Source: Gammaproteobacteria bacterium
Lineage (GTDB): Bacteria > Pseudomonadota > Gammaproteobacteria > Burkholderiales > Burkholderiaceae_D
Direction of reading: 5' to 3'
Assembly (NCBI GenBank): GCA_903970185.1
Contig: CAJCIC010000020.1
Span: 1-64,000, forward strand
Length of the DNA stretch: 64,000 nt
Shown: positions 49,089 to 61,825 of the stretch, one piece after another
How the letters are laid out: every line of letters begins with the position of its first letter
Position numbering within the stretch: position 1 is the stretch's first letter
The notes under the pieces: model-generated
Databases searched by the model: none
What the model was told of the DNA's origin: nothing
What the model saw: only the letters and a program-made list of their open reading frames with translations
Made by a program: the position numbers and the translations under genes

Positions 49089-50696
49089 TTGAACGAGTTG
49101 ACGACAACGATTGCCAGGGCACGCGCTGCGCTGAATGCTGGCGAAGGCCAGAAAGCACTTGAACTGGCACGCGCTGCTCTTGACGCAGCCAGATCGCCCG
49201 ACGCTTTAGCCGAGCAGCTCGCCGAGAGCCTGAACCTCCATGGCGACGTCCTGTTGTTTCGCTCCGAATATGCCGAAGCGATGAGTTGCTTCATCGAAGC
49301 TCTCGACCTCTGGCGCCAGTTGGACAAAAGCGCCATGGTGGTCGGATGCTTGCACAGCATCGCGCAGATCGATATGCATGTGGGCAATCTCGCAGAAGCG
49401 GCCAAGGCCTGCTCGGCCGCGTTAACACTGGCCGCCGGTCTTGACGCCGCAACACAAGCGCCCCTGCTGCAAAGGATGGGGATGCTCTATGCCCGGCTCG
49501 GTGATCTCGAGCGTGCACAAAAGTTCCATGAGGAGGCGGCTTCCTACCATCGCATGATCGGTGACGACGCCGCTCTTGCATCTGCGCTGAATAGCATCGG
49601 CACCCTCTATCTTCGTTCCGGCGAAGAAAATGTAAAAAATGATCCGGTCAAGGCCAGGCAAGCCTTTTTGAGCGCACGAAACCAGCTCGAGACCGCAGCA
49701 GAAATCGCCAAGCGCACGACAGACCGACATCTGCAGGGCCTCATCGCTGGCAACATCGGCAGCGTGCTTGCGCGCCTGGGTCAGCTCGATGACGCGCTTG
49801 AATTAATGCACCTGCAACTTGAAATTGTTCGTTCCGCCGGAGATCGCTATAACGAGTCACTTTGCCTTGCCAATATCGGCGAGGCCATGCGTTTGGCAGG
49901 ACGCCCAACTGATGCGCTCGAAGTCGTCAAGGACGCACTGACGATCGCCGAATCACTCAACTCGGTCATGAGACAACGACGCGCGCACGAGGAGCTGTCA
50001 AACTGCTTCGAGGAATTGGGAGATTTCCGCAGCGCGCTTTTCCACTACAAGCGCTTTGATCACTTCAAGGATGCCGTGCATGCGGAACAAACCGAGCGAC
50101 AAACCCACGATCTCCAGATCCAGGTTGCCGTGAACGAAGTCCGCGCGCAAGCCGAGAGCTATCGCGCCGAGCGAGACCGGCTCGAGCATTTGAATGCGCG
50201 TTTGCATGACGAGGCGTATCGAGACCCGCTGACCCAGCTCTCGAACCGCAGAAGCCTTGATGAAGGGCTGGAAGATGCGTACTCGCGGTCCGTTCGCGAC
50301 AAGACCCCTCTGGCGATTGCCCTCGCCGACGTTGACCATTTCAAGCTCATCAATGACCGCTTCTCGCATGCAACCGGCGACCAGGTCCTCAGGCAGATTT
50401 CAACCTTGCTTCGTCGTGCGCTGCGCGATCGGGATCTGGTCGCTCGCTATGGCGGAGAAGAATTCGCCCTCGTTTTGGTCGGTCTCGAACTCGACCGCGC
50501 CCTGATGGCCTGTGAACGCTTGCGGGCCGCAGTGCAAGGCTATCGCTGGAGCGAAATTCACCCTGACTTGCAGGTGACCATCAGTATTGGCGTCACCGCC
50601 GAAACTTCCCTGGGCTCCGGCAGCGCAATGCTCGAGGCCGCCGATCACAAGTTATACGAGGCCAAGCGCGCCGGGCGCAACCGAATTTCGCATTGA
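49089..50696 (+). CDS. TPR-GGDEF diguanylate cyclase
   Basis: 535 residues from a TTG at 49089; no in-frame ATG exists near it, and another TTG nine bp later is possible. About eight tetratricopeptide-like helical repeats fill residues 1-330, then a coiled coil (about 335-375), then a GGDEF domain. The active site is RYGGEEF at about 455, and an inhibitory I-site RDRD stands exactly five residues before it, so both catalysis and product inhibition should be intact. No signal peptide or membrane segment is seen. The TPR part may sense a protein partner. It makes c-di-GMP and stands upstream of the outer-membrane cluster. Confidence 0.9.
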   Translation: MNELTTTIARARAALNAGEGQKALELARAALDAARSPDALAEQLAESLNLHGDVLLFRSEYAEAMSCFIEALDLWRQLDKSAMVVGCLHSIAQIDMHVGNLAEAAKACSAALTLAAGLDAATQAPLLQRMGMLYARLGDLERAQKFHEEAASYHRMIGDDAALASALNSIGTLYLRSGEENVKNDPVKARQAFLSARNQLETAAEIAKRTTDRHLQGLIAGNIGSVLARLGQLDDALELMHLQLEIVRSAGDRYNESLCLANIGEAMRLAGRPTDALEVVKDALTIAESLNSVMRQRRAHEELSNCFEELGDFRSALFHYKRFDHFKDAVHAEQTERQTHDLQIQVAVNEVRAQAESYRAERDRLEHLNARLHDEAYRDPLTQLSNRRSLDEGLEDAYSRSVRDKTPLAIALADVDHFKLINDRFSHATGDQVLRQISTLLRRALRDRDLVARYGGEEFALVLVGLELDRALMACERLRAAVQGYRWSEIHPDLQVTISIGVTAETSLGSGSAMLEAADHKLYEAKRAGRNRISH

Positions 50697-51160: not shown

Positions 51161-52501
51161 ATGCAGCGTGGAGTAGTTTTTCGAAGAGGTGTCGGGCGGG
51201 CTTTCTGCGGGTGGGTGCTATCGGTCGCAGCGCTAAGTCCGTTGCAGGCTGCGCTTGCCACCGACGCCGAGGACATGCATGACCTCATTCAAAAAAATCA
51301 GCCGGTTGAGGCCTACACGCTTGGGCTCGCCCATGCGGACGAGCTGGGCGATCCGCAGTTCGATCTGTATTTCGGCATCGCGGCGGTGGGCGCCGGACAC
51401 GCAGGCGAAGGGGTGCTGGCCCTTGAGCGTTACGTGCAGCAATTCCCCAATGATCTTTCAGCGCGCGCACAGCTTGCGGTAGGCTACTTTGCGCTTGGCG
51501 ATGACTTGCGCTCACAGCAGGAATTCGAGTATTTGCAAAAGCAGAACCCACCTCCTGAGGTCGCCTCGATCATTGATCACTACCTCACGGCAATCAGGTC
51601 GCGGCAGTCGGAGTACAAGACCACGTGGAGCGGCTTCGTCGAAGCCGGATTGGGCTTTGACAACAATACCAATTCGGGCGCTGGCAGCAGCACCGTGAAC
51701 GTGCCGGTGCTTGGCGCCGTGACCCTGGAACCAGGCGGCGTGAAGATTCCAAGCGTGTACCAGGAGATCGCAGCCGGGGGCCAGGTCAGTACCCCCATCG
51801 CTCCGGGCATCACGGCGTTTGGCGCGGCCAACATCGACGATAAGCTCAATGATGCAGACGATGCCCACGGCTACGACATTCTGACCTTTGGGCTCAGAGG
51901 CGGTGCGACGTATGTCGACCAGGACAACCTGTACCGACTTACCGGCGGCCTTAGCGAACTCCAGCTGGATGGCACCGATTACCTCGAAGTCGCCTCGATT
52001 GCAGGCGATGTCTCGCACCAGATCGACCCGTTCCAGTCGATCGTAGGCTCGCTCTCGGTGGCCGGACTGCGCTATCCGACGCAGACCATTCGCAATTCGA
52101 CGATCTATACCGGCGACCTGTCGTACCGGCGGGTGTTGGTGGCTCCCTGGAACCCGGTGCTCTCCGGTGGACTGACCTTGGGCTACGAGGACAATCCGCG
52201 CGCCGGCAATCTCGCCCGACATATTTACGGCGTTCACGTCGAAACATCGGTCGTGCCGCTGCCGCAATGGCTGCTGCTTGCAGGCCTGGCCGTCCAGCAA
52301 AGCGACTACCTTGATGAGGAGCCGCTGCTTGTCACGACACGGCACGATACCTACGGCTCGCTCAATTTGCTCGCGGTCTATCAGTACAACCGGCAGCTGT
52401 CCTTGCGTATTGAGGCGCTGGTTTCGGGGAATCATTCCAATCTCGGCCTATACGCCTATGATCGAAATGTCATCTCGGCAAAGGTTCGCTATGAATTCTA
52501 G
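51161..52501 (+). CDS. Outer-membrane TPR-beta-barrel protein (DUF560/Slam-like)
   Basis: 446 residues. A signal peptide (about 1-34), then two or three TPR-like helical repeats (about 45-150), then a region of alternating beta-strands with aromatic girdles ending in a C-terminal Phe (KVRYEF), the classic outer-membrane barrel ending. GFDNNTNSG at the start of the barrel and NHSNLGLYAYDRN near its end fit the TPR-plus-barrel outer-membrane group that includes Slam/DUF560 type XI secretion proteins. Membership in that group is by pattern, not alignment. GGAGGG lies just before the ATG. It overlaps the following FecR gene by 11 bp. Confidence 0.72.
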   Translation: MQRGVVFRRGVGRAFCGWVLSVAALSPLQAALATDAEDMHDLIQKNQPVEAYTLGLAHADELGDPQFDLYFGIAAVGAGHAGEGVLALERYVQQFPNDLSARAQLAVGYFALGDDLRSQQEFEYLQKQNPPPEVASIIDHYLTAIRSRQSEYKTTWSGFVEAGLGFDNNTNSGAGSSTVNVPVLGAVTLEPGGVKIPSVYQEIAAGGQVSTPIAPGITAFGAANIDDKLNDADDAHGYDILTFGLRGGATYVDQDNLYRLTGGLSELQLDGTDYLEVASIAGDVSHQIDPFQSIVGSLSVAGLRYPTQTIRNSTIYTGDLSYRRVLVAPWNPVLSGGLTLGYEDNPRAGNLARHIYGVHVETSVVPLPQWLLLAGLAVQQSDYLDEEPLLVTTRHDTYGSLNLLAVYQYNRQLSLRIEALVSGNHSNLGLYAYDRNVISAKVRYEF

Positions 52502-54209
52502 GATCGCCATGCATCTGGCCAGCCACCTTCGTTTGCGCTGGATTTTCGCCGTTGCGGTTGCCGCTGCCGCGGTCCCCGCCCTTGCTGCCGATGCCCCGGC
52601 GCGCGCTTTGTTCGTCACCGGCCAGGTCACCGCGGTGCGCGACGGGCAGCAGCGCCCCCTCTACAAGGGTGCGGAAATCGACGTCGGCGACGAGATCAGG
52701 ACCGGGCTTGCGAGCAATGTACAGATCCGCTTTTCCGATGCCTCCATCGTCTCGCTCAAGCCGCAAACCAATTTTGTTGTGGCCAACTATTATTTCAACG
52801 GTCGTGAAGATGGATCGGAGCGGGTGTTCTTCAACCTGTTGCGCGGCGGACTGCGTACCGTCACCGGCCTGATCGGCCACGCCAACCAGGCCAACTACAA
52901 GGTCACCACGCCAACGGCGACGATCGGCATTCGCGGCACGGTATGGAGTGCCACGCATTGCGTGTCCGATGAATGCAAGAACGACGACGGCACGACCGCC
53001 AAGCCCGGGACCTACGGGGAGGTAAAATCCGGCGCCATCGCCTTGTCCAACGACACGCCCGAAGTGGTCTTCGGCGCGCACACCGCGTTTTATGTCGCCG
53101 ATCGCAGTTCTGCGCCGCAACGGCTTCTTGTCGCCCCTTCGTTTGTCGCCATCGGTTTGCAAATGCGCGCCTCGACGTCCAGTTCGACAAGTGCTGCCGC
53201 CGGCAACTTTGGCGCCGCGCAGGACAGTCTCACCACCACGACATCGTCGTCCGCTGCAAGCGGCGCGCCCACCAGCACCAGCAGCACCGCCATCGGGTCG
53301 TCGGGCGTTCCAACCGCCGCGCAACTCGGCTTCGTCGCATCCAACAACACCAGTTCGTCCGGCACTTCGAGCGTGCTTCCGGCCAGCAACACCTCGACGA
53401 CAGGCACGACAGGCACGATCAGCGGGGTGACCGGGTTCATTGCCGGCTATACGGTCAATACCGACACCACCGACGGAGTCATCTCGGGCAATGGTGGCAA
53501 CGAAAATTACGCCCCGGTGACCTCCTATTCAATCTCATCCGATGGCCATCTGTTGTCCTACAGCTCGTCTCTCGGTCCGCAGGCACTGACCCAAACCGCG
53601 ACGCCCGCCAACATCCAGACCATGCAGATCGACAGCGGCATGCTCTTGATCGGGCAACTGGTTGGCGATTACCGCGGAACCTCCAGCAGTGGCACCGGCT
53701 TCTCGGGTCCGGGCGGTTTCCTCTACATTGAGACCAACTCGCCGCTCGTGAACAACAATTCGAACGGCCCCACCTCGGGCGTGTTTACGTTTGGCGGTCC
53801 CGGGGCATTCATCGGCCTTGCAGCCGATGCTGCCGGAAATACCGCAACGTTCTCACGCTTTACCGCGACATTTAACGTCGGCACCGGCGCGCTGTCGTTT
53901 GCCGCAACGGCCAACTTTGCCTCGATTGCAGGGTACGGGCCGGCGAGCTTGAGTATCACTGGCTCGGCAACCGAGAGCCCCGGATCCTCGAACAGCCAGG
54001 GGACGTTCCCCTTGACTGCGACGTGCACCGGCTCGGGCTGTTTCGAGCCGAGTGCAACAGGTTCGTGGAACGCCAATTTCATCACTTCGGCAACGACCAT
54101 CCCCGCGGCTGTCCTGACCGGAAGCCTGTTTAACGCGACCAGGAATTCAGGCACCGGCAATGCCGTGATCTTCGTTGGCGGCTTGAAGTGCGTCTCCGGC
54201 CATTGTTGA
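52491..54209 (+). CDS. FecR-domain secreted protein with a long Ser/Thr-rich region
   Basis: 572 residues from the ATG at 52491, with AAGG six bases upstream; an ATG at 52509 is possible. A signal peptide (about 1-33, ending ALA) precedes a FecR-like domain (about 40-190: FVTGQVTAVRDGQ, GAEIDVGDEIRTG, TPTATIGIRGTVW). A Ser/Thr/Gly/Ala linker (about 230-320) follows, then a C-terminal beta-rich part (about 380-572) with repeated Gly-Ser-Phe patterns. Only six Cys occur, in three CX4C pairs, the last ending at the final residue. There is no lipobox. It may be the exported partner of the overlapping barrel gene; that is inference. The C-terminal fold cannot be named with confidence. Confidence 0.75.
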   Translation: MNSRIAMHLASHLRLRWIFAVAVAAAAVPALAADAPARALFVTGQVTAVRDGQQRPLYKGAEIDVGDEIRTGLASNVQIRFSDASIVSLKPQTNFVVANYYFNGREDGSERVFFNLLRGGLRTVTGLIGHANQANYKVTTPTATIGIRGTVWSATHCVSDECKNDDGTTAKPGTYGEVKSGAIALSNDTPEVVFGAHTAFYVADRSSAPQRLLVAPSFVAIGLQMRASTSSSTSAAAGNFGAAQDSLTTTTSSSAASGAPTSTSSTAIGSSGVPTAAQLGFVASNNTSSSGTSSVLPASNTSTTGTTGTISGVTGFIAGYTVNTDTTDGVISGNGGNENYAPVTSYSISSDGHLLSYSSSLGPQALTQTATPANIQTMQIDSGMLLIGQLVGDYRGTSSSGTGFSGPGGFLYIETNSPLVNNNSNGPTSGVFTFGGPGAFIGLAADAAGNTATFSRFTATFNVGTGALSFAATANFASIAGYGPASLSITGSATESPGSSNSQGTFPLTATCTGSGCFEPSATGSWNANFITSATTIPAAVLTGSLFNATRNSGTGNAVIFVGGLKCVSGHC

Positions 54210-56879: not shown

Positions 56880-58046
56880 ATGACGCAAAGCCGAGTGCCG
56901 CACCTCGCCGAGTATGCGAGCGAGTTCTTTGGCACGGCCCTGATGATGGCAATCGGCGTCGGTGCGATCACCCTGATGTGGTCAAGTGGCAGCCCGATGC
57001 GCGAGGTGATCCATTCGGATGGCTTGCGCAGGCTCGTCACCGGCATCATGTTTGCCGGCGGCGCGACGCTTGTCGTGCTCTCGCCCTTGGGGCAGCGCAG
57101 TGGCGGCCATCTCAATCCCGCGGTCACCCTGGCCTTCTGGTGGAAAGGGCAGATCACGACGCCAGACGCGCTCGCCTATGTCGTCGCCCAGATCCTGGGC
57201 GCCCTGCTTGGCGTTGGCGTTATCGTCGCTGCTGCCGGCAGTGCAGCCAAGACAGTTCAATACGGCATGACCGCGCCAGGGCAGGGTTTTTCCGTGGCGA
57301 CCGTGTTCGCCGCCGAAATCCTCATCACCTTTCTTCTCGTCTTTCTGATCCTGTACTCGGTCAACAACCAGCGCTTTGCGCCAAAAACACCTTACCTTGC
57401 GGGATCACTGGTCGCACTTCTGGTGTTCGTTGAAGCGCCGATTTCCGGCACCAGCCTGAATCCGGCGCGCAGTCTCGCGCCAGCCGTACTGATGAACTCG
57501 TTTCAGGACCAGTGGCTGTATTGGATCGCCCCCCTGGTTGGCGCGCTGATCGCCGTGAAACTGTTCGGCGCGCTCTTTGCCAAGTCCGAACAGTCGGGGT
57601 GTGCCAAGCTTTATCACACCGAGCGCTACCGCTGCATTTTTCTCAATTGCGGCTACAAGAACGTCACGGCCGGAACGGTTGTCATGCGCCAGGGCGAGGC
57701 CGCCAGCGCAGCCTACGTGATCGAAAGAGGCGAGCTCGAGGTACGGATGCAAACCGCAGCCGGCGATGAAGTCGTGCTGGCCCATCTGCATCCGGGCGAC
57801 TGGGTTGGCGAAATGGCGCTTTTGCTCGAACTGCCGCGCAGCGCGACGGTGGTTGCCGCCAAGGATTCGGAGCTGCGCATGGTGACTGCGCACAATCTCG
57901 CCCACGTCATCGCCGAACATCCCTCCGAGACGGCACGCCTTCTGAAGCAGATGACAGCGCGCCTGCACGAAGCCAACCTGCGCCTCGGGCTGCCCCTGAC
58001 CATGCACGCAGGAAGCCCCGATTCGGAGCATGCCGCAACCAATTAG
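56880..58046 (+). CDS. Aquaporin with C-terminal cyclic-nucleotide-binding domain
   Basis: 388 residues. The first 235 residues are a complete MIP channel with six transmembrane segments, a first NPA at 79-81 in SGGHLNPAVTL and a second at 194-196 in SLNPARS with the filter Arg197. A short linker with C241, H246, C252 and C257 leads to a CNB domain (about 258-350). Its phosphate-binding cassette VGEMALLLELPRSATVV (309-325) closely fits the cAMP/cGMP consensus GE(L/M)AL...PR(S/A)AT, with Glu311 and Arg320. This is a channel-sensor fusion that should respond to a cyclic nucleotide. Water versus glycerol transport is not resolved, though the NPA/Arg pattern fits a water channel. It diverges from the DUF4124-like gene. 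Confidence 0.87.
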   Translation: MTQSRVPHLAEYASEFFGTALMMAIGVGAITLMWSSGSPMREVIHSDGLRRLVTGIMFAGGATLVVLSPLGQRSGGHLNPAVTLAFWWKGQITTPDALAYVVAQILGALLGVGVIVAAAGSAAKTVQYGMTAPGQGFSVATVFAAEILITFLLVFLILYSVNNQRFAPKTPYLAGSLVALLVFVEAPISGTSLNPARSLAPAVLMNSFQDQWLYWIAPLVGALIAVKLFGALFAKSEQSGCAKLYHTERYRCIFLNCGYKNVTAGTVVMRQGEAASAAYVIERGELEVRMQTAAGDEVVLAHLHPGDWVGEMALLLELPRSATVVAAKDSELRMVTAHNLAHVIAEHPSETARLLKQMTARLHEANLRLGLPLTMHAGSPDSEHAATN

Positions 58047-58321: not shown

Positions 58322-60985
58322 GTGGCCGCAAATGAAGCAAAACGTCTGAAGGAAATCAAGGAAAACGGAGCCGAATGGCAACGCTGGGGGCCGTATCTGA
58401 GCGAGCGCTCATGGGGCACGGTGCGCGAAGACTACAGCCCGCACGGCTCGGCATGGAATTATTTCACGCACGATATGGCGCGCAGCAAGGCGTATCGCTG
58501 GGGCGAGGACGGCCTTGCCGGCATCTGCGATCGCTATCAGCTGCTGTGTTTCTCACTGGCGCTTTGGAATGGGCGCGATCCGATCCTGAAGGAAAGACCA
58601 TTCGGGCTGATTCCAGCTGAAGGCAATCATGGCGAGGACCTGAAGGAATATTACTTCTACCTCGACAGCACGCCCACGCACAGCTACATGAAGTACCTCT
58701 ACAAGTATCCGCAGGCCGAATATCCCTACGCCTGGCTGGTCGAAGAGAACGGCCGCCGCGGCGGCACCGGCCCCGAATTCGAATTGCTCGACACCGGCGT
58801 CTTCAACGAGGATCGCTATTTCGATGTGTTTGTAGAGTATGCCAAGGCAGGCGCCGAGGACATCTGCATCCGTATCGAGGCCTTCAATCGCGGCCCGGAC
58901 GAAGCGACGCTGCACCTCATTCCCCAGCTCTGGTTCCGCAACATCTGGGGCTGGGGCAGCAAGCGCGCGCGTGAACCGGTAATCACGCTTGGCGAAGGCG
59001 GGGCAAATTTTGTCGTTCTGAGCGCAGACGACAGCGAAGCCGACGGGCTTGACAACCTGCCTACTAAATACAGCCTGGGGCGGCGCATGCTTTACGCCGA
59101 GGCCGACGCCAAGCCTCTGTTCACCGACAATGAGAGCAACAATCTCAAGCTCTACGGCGAGCAGGCCGATGACGGTCGCAAGTACGTCAAGGACGCCTTC
59201 CATCGCCACATCGTCAACGGCGAGCGCTGCGTCAATCCGCGGCACAAGGGCACCAAGGCGGGGCTTCAGTTCGTGCGCAAGGTGCCGGCGCACGGCTCGA
59301 CCGTCGTGCATTTGCGCCTGAGCAACAAGGCCATGAAGGATCCGCTTGGCGATGTCGACGCGATCGTTGCCAAACGCCTGGCCGATGCCGACGACTTCTA
59401 CGCCACGGTGCATCCAAAAAATGCCAACGAAGATGAACGCCGGGTGCAGCGCCAGGCCTTTGCCGGGCTGATGTGGTCAAAGCAGAACTATATCTTCGAC
59501 GTCGAGAAGTGGCTCAAGGGCGACAACCCCGACATGCCGCCCCCGTATTCGCGCAATTTTGTGCGCAACACGCATTGGCATCACCTCAATTCGATGCGCG
59601 TTTTGTCGATGCCCGATAAATGGGAATACCCCTGGTTCGCCGCGTGGGACCTGGCTTTTCACACGGTCGCAATCGCCTTGATCGACGCCAACTTCGCCAA
59701 GGAGCAGTTGTGGTTCATGCTGTTTGAGCAGTTCCAGCATCCGAACGGCCAGATTCCCGCCTACGAGTGGGAGTTCTCCGACCTGAATCCACCGGTCCAT
59801 CCGTGGGCGGTCTGGCGCGTCTACAACATGGACCGCATCCGTTCCGGCACTGCCGATCGCGCCTTCCTCGAGAAATGCTTCCAAAAGCTCCTGATCAACT
59901 TTGCCTGGTGGATCAACAAGGTCGACAGTACCGGCAACAACATTTTCGAGGGCGGCTTTCTCGGCCTTGACAACATCACGCTGTTTGACCGGTCGGACAA
60001 GCTGCCAGGTGGGGCCGTGCTCGAACAATCCGACGCCACGGGCTGGATGGGTCTTTTCTGCCTGAACATGATGCGCATGGCACTCGAACTGGCAAAAGAG
60101 AACAAGACCTATGAAGGCCTTGCCACCAAATTCTTCCAGCACTACATCTATGTCGGTGCTGCAATGAAGAAGATGGGCGGGCGAAATTACAACCTGTGGG
60201 ACGAAGACGACGGCTTCTTCTATGACGTGCTGCGTTATCCGGACGGCAAGTTCGAAAAGCTGCGCGTGCGCTCGATGGTCGGCTTGATACCACTATATGC
60301 CGTCGAGCGGCTCGAGACCGAATGGATCGAACAGTTCAGCGAATTCAAGAGCAGCCTTGAATGGTTCCTCGAGAATCGCAAGGACCTGGTGCAGCACTGC
60401 GTCACGCGCATTCCTGGCAAGAGCGGCGAGACCCTGGCCCTGACCATCGTCGATCAGCACCAGCTGAAACAGATGCTCGAACGCGTCATGGATCCGCGCG
60501 AGTTCCTCTCGGACTTCGGTCTCAGAAGCCTGTCGGCAAGCCATCTTGCGCAGCCCTTCGTTCTTGGCGATAACCGCGTCACTTATGAACCTGGCGAAGC
60601 CGATTGCAAGATCAAGGGCGGCAATTCCAACTGGCGCGGCCCGATCTGGTTCCCGACCGCGTTTCTCCTGATCGAATCCCTGCGCAAGCTGGGCAAGGCG
60701 CACGGCGCCGACGTCACGGTCGAAATTGACGGCACCACCTTCACGATCGGCGAGATGGCAAAGACGCACGCCGAACGCCTGATGGCGATTTTCATGAGAG
60801 ATTCAAGTGGCCGACGTCCGGTCTTCGGGCACATCGAGAAATTCCAGACGGATCCGTACTGGCGCGACTACTTGCTCTTCCATGAATATTTCCACGGCGA
60901 CACGGGCGTTGGTCTTGGCGCATCACACCAGACCGGCTGGACCGGTCTTGTCGCATCACTGATCGACGAATGGCGATCGGCATGA
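58322..60985 (+). CDS. Glycoside hydrolase family 63-type glucosidase
   Basis: 887 residues. A cytosolic (no signal peptide) GH63/MGH1-type enzyme with an (alpha/alpha)6 barrel; the segment [15 protein letters not shown] (about 435-450) and [17 protein letters not shown] (about 765) carry the expected acidic catalytic environment, with Asp in AWDLAFH. Bacterial members hydrolyse alpha-glucosyl di- or oligosaccharides such as glucosylglycerate/mannosylglycerate or similar. The start is a GTG with GGGGAG eight bp upstream. It is followed by a glucose-dehydrogenase-like gene 36 bp downstream. Confidence 0.83.
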
Positions 60986-61021
60986 TCCACAGTTATAGCG
61001 AAAACTTTTTACGGAGAAATG

Positions 61022-61825
61022 ATGAGCTATCAGCCGCTTAAAGGACAGAAGGCCTTAGTCACCGGAGCCAGCTCGGGAATTGGCGCAGGCGTTGCACTGT
61101 CGCTTGCCGCCGCCGGAGCCGACGTGCTCGTCAACTACGCATCGAGTCTTGCCGGTGCGCAAAAAGTGGTCGACCAGATCAAAGAGCTCGGTGCCAACGC
61201 CATCGCTGTCAAGGCGGACGTGTCGAAAGAAGATGACGTCAAGGCGATGTTTGACGAAATGCTCGGCACGTTTGGTGCGATCGACATTCTGGTCAATAAC
61301 GCCGGTTTGCAGCAGGACGCGCCGTTTACCGAAATGACGCTGGCCCAATGGAATACGGTCCTTGGCATCAACCTGACCGGCATGTTCCTTTGCACCCAGC
61401 TTGCCGTTCGCGCCATGATCAAGCGCGGCATCCCGCCTGGTTCGCGCTGTGCCGGCAAGGTCATCTGCATGTCCTCGGTGCATGAAGTGATTCCATGGGC
61501 CGGGCACGCAAACTACGCGGCGTCAAAAGGAGGCGTCAAGCTCTTCATGCAAACGCTGGCCCAGGAACTTGCGCCGCAGAAGATTCGCATCAATTCGATC
61601 GGACCCGGTGCGATCCAAACGCCGATCAATCGCGCCGCCTGGGACACCCCCGAGGCGCTTGCCTCGCTTCTGAAGCTGATCCCCTACGGACGCATTGGCA
61701 TACCCGAGGACATCGGTAATGCCACGGTATGGCTCGCGTCGGATGCGGCGGACTACGTCAACGGCCAGACCATCTTCGTTGACGGCGGCATGACCCTCTA
61801 TCCGGAATTCGCAGACGGCGGCTAG
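61022..61825 (+). CDS. SDR-family glucose-1-dehydrogenase-like oxidoreductase
   Basis: 267 residues from the second of two adjacent ATGs (61019 and 61022; GGAG five bases before the second). The Rossmann motif TGASSGIG, the NNAG motif, catalytic Ser in MSSVHE and YAASK (Tyr-x-x-x-Lys) are all present. GGMTLYPEF at the C-terminus fits the glucose-1-dehydrogenase group. It could oxidise glucose released by the upstream glucosidase to gluconolactone. The adjoining genes are probably an operon. Confidence 0.88.
   Translation: MSYQPLKGQKALVTGASSGIGAGVALSLAAAGADVLVNYASSLAGAQKVVDQIKELGANAIAVKADVSKEDDVKAMFDEMLGTFGAIDILVNNAGLQQDAPFTEMTLAQWNTVLGINLTGMFLCTQLAVRAMIKRGIPPGSRCAGKVICMSSVHEVIPWAGHANYAASKGGVKLFMQTLAQELAPQKIRINSIGPGAIQTPINRAAWDTPEALASLLKLIPYGRIGIPEDIGNATVWLASDAADYVNGQTIFVDGGMTLYPEFADGG

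Follow-up and report, generated by a model that had tools for sequence, protein, structure and literature searches.

We found that a single gene in the 64,000-nucleotide stretch of DNA analysed here (the window) encodes a channel of the aquaporin (MIP) superfamily followed by a cyclic-nucleotide-binding (CNB) domain, a fusion that is real and conserved and that is apparently undescribed. The 388-aa frame (56880..58046, + strand) begins with ATG, has a Shine-Dalgarno-like AAGGAG close 5' of it, and holds two complete Pfam domains in the same frame, MIP (E 6e-45) and then CNB (E 6.5e-20), which bears out the description, in an earlier note on this DNA, of one frame encoding a full channel plus a CNB domain. 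Judging from the sequence, we propose, with a probability of about 0.55, that the protein is a cAMP-responsive small-solute facilitator tied to glucan/glucose metabolism.

A scan of ~85,000 bacterial and archaeal species genomes (GTDB) returned nine other fusions; because the scan requires exact 8-residue words, more distant ones may exist. Their sources are MAGs labelled Burkholderiales, Nevskia, Steroidobacteraceae or unplaced proteobacteria and one record labelled Klebsiella pneumoniae (L007); the latter is a 2.5 Mb genome, its fusion groups with that of a gammaproteobacterial MAG (L006), and the label is probably wrong. Over their full length, the nine proteins show 54–68% identity to the window protein in an alignment of the ten. 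The residues to which the earlier note drew attention in the channel (both NPA motifs and Arg197), in the phosphate-binding cassette (Glu311 and Arg320) and in the linker between the domains (C241, H246, C252 and C257) are present at the positions given there and invariant in 10/10 fusions, as are G310, P319 and A322 of the cassette and A242, K243, L244, T247, Y250 and F254 of the linker. The comparison with other MIP-then-CNB proteins suggested in that note thus revealed neither degraded NPA motifs, nor a lost cassette Glu or Arg, nor an unconserved fusion, the observations that it had listed as contrary to its proposal. Mean pairwise identity among the fusions is 71% for the MIP part, 76% for the linker motif and 65% for the CNB part, and 36% for the seven residues N-terminal to the linker motif. 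In pairwise comparisons, dN is much smaller than dS for both domains (for L006/L009, dN 0.033 and dS 0.652 in MIP, and dN 0.058 and dS 0.902 in CNB), indicating purifying selection on both halves. We considered whether two separate genes had been falsely joined by a sequencing or assembly error; chance and misassembly are excluded by the recurrence of the same junction in nine further, independent assemblies, by dN values far below dS in both halves and by a confident model for each domain, so that the probability left to an artefact is negligible.

The fusion is rare, and its carriers, few in number, are for the most part uncultured bacteria. With a single-protein query against 250 genomes of the order, it appeared among the best matches only in the window's genome, and a profile built from the ten fusions likewise retrieved only that genome among 369 genomes of the class and among 398 of the phylum. 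The 97 genomes of the family yielded one further fusion, that of the L001 genome, and the window's genus consists of one genome only. We therefore rejected a wide distribution, given the near-empty scans of order, class, phylum and family; no fusion was found in the viral contigs scanned.

The protein is a member of the MIP/aquaporin superfamily by profile, motifs, filter Arg and fold. Residues 6-226 (56895..57557, + strand) match positions 5-219 of 222 of PF00230 (E 5.8e-45; 154 bits, cut-off 25) and comprise six TM helices and two NPA half-helices, with the first NPA motif at N79-A81 (57114..57122, +) and the second at N194-A196, followed by the filter Arg197 (57459..57470, +); in Foldseek, the first half of the AlphaFold model falls on solved aquaporins. 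From comparison with AqpZ-like sequences, the selectivity filter is formed by A59 (or G60, depending on the placement of one gap), V182, T191 and R197, and A59, V182, T191 and R197 are identical in 10/10 fusions. In bacterial MIPs this ar/R filter is mostly Phe/His-or-Ile/x/Arg, with Phe at H2 and His or Ile at H5 in AqpZ types, or Trp/Gly/x/Arg, with Trp at H2 and Gly (Ile in some) at H5 in GlpF types (PMC6912568), whereas the fusion has A(G)/V/T/R, with A59/G60 and V182 at the positions in question. Because its filter fits neither the AqpZ nor the GlpF type, a wide pore without specialisation for water is probable. The suggestion in the earlier note of a water or small-solute channel therefore holds better in its second half: a filter of Ala(Gly)/Val/Thr/Arg without Phe and His speaks against the water part and makes a wider, small-solute pore likelier. 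The filter residues tilt us slightly towards a substrate other than water; the solute would most likely be small and neutral, and water is possible.

The CNB domain spans residues 260-347 (57657..57920, + strand; PF00027, E 6.5e-20), with its C helix extending to ~369. It scores 71 bits with the cNMP_binding profile (cut-off 27.5; profile positions 2-89 of 89); PKA and PKG align with it, and CAP is another of its matches. In the AlphaFold model, it has the expected beta barrel (strands within 259-335) and B and C helices (337-346 and 348-369). Its phosphate-binding cassette GEMALLLELPRSA (residues 310-322; 57807..57845, +) contains E311 and R320, and in all ten fusions the Glu and Arg stand at the canonical spacing of CNB domains of the PKA/CAP type; a degenerate cassette was rejected on the invariance of these two residues. 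In place of Thr, the Arg is followed by Ser, or in L001 by Ala. This gives no pointer to a cGMP preference, and cAMP would be the simpler guess for the ligand. CNB domains can lose or switch ligands; from the state of its cassette, that of the fusion quite likely binds a cyclic nucleotide. The fusion cassette GEMALLLELPRSATVVA also matches canonical ones such as GELSLLTGGPRSATVRA (tabulated in PMC2246266).

Between both domains lies the motif G-C-A-K-L-x-H-T-x2-Y-x-C-x-F-x2-C (residues 240-257; 57597..57650, + strand), a candidate metal or redox site. The invariance of C241, H246, C252 and C257 in the ten fusions agrees with the redox or metal sensing that the earlier note had considered for this linker; a similar tail is nevertheless present in most unfused sister aquaporins (see below) and is not confined to proteins with a CNB domain. 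Ten close sequences gave a poor first AlphaFold model (mean pLDDT 62.6); the model used here was built from 34 aligned rows, namely fusions, MIP domains from viral-contig loci and CNB domains mostly from myxobacterial loci (single chain; mean pLDDT 83.3, pTM 0.70). In this model, pLDDT is about 90 for MIP, 82-94 for the CNB barrel, 71-78 for the C-terminal helices and below 50 for the linker (236-255); given a pTM of 0.70 and a linker without defined structure, the model does not fix how the domains are placed relative to each other or the path from CNB to pore. Residues 233-258, at the position of the N3A element, contain no helix and have pLDDT below 50. With no helix modelled from the end of helix 6 to the first CNB strand, the usual N-terminal helical element of CNB domains seems to be replaced by the conserved Cys/His linker. 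By analogy with AqpZ and GlpF, whose N- and C-termini are cytoplasmic (PMC6912568), the CNB domain should be on the cytoplasmic side.

The fusion gene is followed directly downstream, in the same order and strand in 10/10 loci, by genes for a glycoside hydrolase and an SDR oxidoreductase. In the window, these are a GH63/MGH1-like, glucosidase-type enzyme of 887 aa (58322..60985, +; PF22422, E 1.2e-24; PF03200, E 2.6e-8), 75–80% identical to the GH63 enzymes of the loci compared with it, and a 268-aa SDR (61019..61825, +) whose best NCBIfam match is glucose 1-dehydrogenase (NF005559, 239.7 bits, above the cut-off of 215; NF006493, 302.5 bits, below the cut-off of 420). Six loci (L004-L009) form a clade with a fourth gene in the row, and with divergent GlgC and GlgA genes on the other side of the fusion; where there was enough flank (L004, L006, L007 and L009), a further 149-aa gene and a GAF-GAF-PAS-class III cyclase gene were found. 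Literature searches for a tie between GH63, glucose dehydrogenase and aquaporin found nothing relevant. In the window, a TPR-GGDEF (diguanylate cyclase) gene lies ~6 kb upstream of the fusion, with a FecR-domain gene further on (49089-50696 and 52278-54209).

The GAF-GAF-PAS cyclase of the clade keeps FTD, DKFIGD, DYT and GVNLA[SA]R, and with them the metal Asp, the purine Lys and the Thr, a set that we take to be the signature of adenylyl-type class III enzymes. All of the fusion genomes searched (8/8) have at least two class III cyclase matches above the PF00211 cut-off. In the genomes of L006 (G1066) and L007 (G1067), the two class III cyclases recognised are both encoded no more than about 8 kb from the fusion, which counts as one evolutionary case because these genomes are close relatives. 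G1066, G1067 and G1068 have a second class III cyclase gene (~375-383 aa) on the other strand, ~2 kb past that of the GAF-PAS cyclase. No class III cyclase was found within the window; of the five in the window's genome, the nearest is encoded on the same contig at a distance of about 47 kb. The flanks fetched for L001-L003 contain no homologue of the clade's cyclase. Because each of the fusion genomes examined has class III cyclases, with one adjoining the fusion in one clade, nucleotide control becomes more plausible.

The closest unfused channels share 35–41% identity with the fusions. In the tree, these sisters and the fusions are one group apart from AqpZ-like proteins (support 100/99), within which the fusions fall together (82/86), and a single origin of the fusions is possible. 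Most unfused sisters have a C-terminal tail similar to the GCAKLYHTERYRCIFLNCGY of the fusions, for example HCAKLIHSADQRCIHCHYEPP. A GH63 gene adjoins 5/8 of the sisters, some of which also have genes for an SDR, a glycogen debranching enzyme, a gluconolactonase-like protein or a GMC oxidoreductase nearby. Since unfused sisters have a similar tail and often a GH63 neighbour, it is simplest to regard the channel, its tail and the glucan/glucose module as older and the CNB domain as an addition behind the tail, although it is also possible that the domain was lost in the unfused lines instead of gained in the fusions. The five unfused MIPs beside GH63 genes (L069:3784-4632, L071:8498-9565, L077:8430-9269, L078:8519-9349 and L079:8194-9117) have a C-terminal C-[AC]-K-[LI]-x-H-x5-C-then-Cys tail, which looks like a metal or redox site; we know of no description of this subfamily.

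In the proposed facilitator, cAMP from the class III cyclases of the cell would bind the CNB domains of a tetramer, and the bound nucleotide would alter the conductance or opening of the channel, its assembly or its stability via the short Cys/His linker. The channel would serve the co-encoded module of the GH63 glucosidase and then the glucose-dehydrogenase-like SDR, so that the flux of a small solute would be matched to glucan breakdown. That transport is regulated in some way by nucleotide binding to the CNB domain seems to us somewhat better than an even bet; a directly ligand-gated pore, in which cAMP on the attached domain would open or close it through a metal- or disulfide-braced linker and so couple glycogen/glucose metabolism to solute flux, is a more tentative idea. 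Few gating mechanisms have been proven for aquaporins, and those known act chiefly via phosphorylation, pH, calcium or calmodulin. The CNB domain might instead bind its nucleotide as an assembly or docking module that recruits the GH63 and SDR enzymes, or sets the turnover or placement of the channel, the pore itself not being gated. This would suit the adjacency of both enzyme genes in 10/10 loci and a linker that is undefined in the model and possibly flexible, but unfused sisters keep the GH63 neighbour without any CNB domain, so the channel-GH63 partnership does not need it, and we consider this role rather unlikely.

Less probable still is that the ligand of the domain is a different nucleotide, cyclic or not, or that the domain has a structural role without any ligand, with the Cys/His linker as the real, redox- or metal-responsive sensor. 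The linker Cys and His residues are indeed invariant and recur in a similar tail without CNB, and CNB domains with other ligands exist, as in trypanosome PKA, which binds nucleosides (PMC10959531); against this, the cassette Glu and Arg are kept at canonical spacing in all ten proteins, and the genomes searched have class III cyclases throughout. The CNB domain also matches the PADLOC profile PycTIR and other Pycsar profiles, which could point to a role in phage defence, as a Pycsar-type membrane effector that responds to a cyclic pyrimidine nucleotide. However, the match is confined to the CNB domain, with none to a Pycsar membrane effector; the fusion has metabolic neighbours in 10/10 loci, and the cyclase adjacent to it in the clade belongs to the GAF/PAS class III enzymes and has adenylyl-type residues, all of which renders a defence function very improbable.

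The six-helix fold, two NPA motifs, filter Arg and expected tetramer are shared by the fusion with AqpZ, GlpF and other bacterial MIPs. The bacterial MIPs reviewed in PMC6912568 have short cytoplasmic ends, and the fusion instead carries a CNB domain after the channel. CNB domains are known on other channels, namely K channels and bacterial mechanosensitive channels (PMC2246266). The latter (Channel_Bact, PMC2246266; MscS-type bCNG) also combine a bacterial channel with a CNB domain and a GE.ALL...PR.A cassette. An osmotic role is possible for them and the fusion in common. Their pore, in contrast, has a fold unrelated to MIP, conducts ions and is tension-related. MloK1 and SthK have, as the fusion does, a C-terminal cytoplasmic CNB domain past the last TM helix in a tetramer, but with a pore of the K-channel type and a helical linker in place of the Cys/His segment. 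Human AQP1 reportedly has a cGMP-activated cation conductance, and the trafficking of human AQP2 is driven by cAMP/PKA; their cyclic-nucleotide control resembles that proposed here, but neither polypeptide contains a CNB domain.

The earlier note knew of no characterised example, and our searches of the open literature (subscription papers were outside their scope) likewise found no description of an aquaporin-CNB fusion; a survey of CNB proteins (PMC2246266) does not mention aquaporins, and a review of prokaryotic aquaporins (PMC6912568) mentions neither cyclic nucleotides nor fusions. Uncommented database entries with the MIP-CNB architecture may well exist. A natural fusion of this kind would extend the range of channel folds with CNB domains to MIP and offer a compact, testable system in which to study how a ligand controls a MIP pore; it would also connect cAMP with solute flux in glucan metabolism in little-studied proteobacteria.

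A second CNB protein is encoded in the same gene row in the L004-L009 clade. The fourth gene of the row, which follows the fusion, GH63 and SDR genes, encodes, in L004, a pyridine-nucleotide oxidoreductase-CNB-CNB-4Fe-4S protein (L004:10795-13083, with Pyr_redox-CNB-CNB-Fer4 equivalents in L005-L009). This is the architecture of the Bact_Pyrredox tandem-CNB proteins (PMC2246266), which are redox enzymes and not channels. The window's genome has a homologue on another contig (C52; L072:5601-9015), where the gene of this protein, which has the same domains (oxidoreductase, two CNB, 4Fe-4S), adjoins, on the same strand, a gene for a Kir-like potassium channel.
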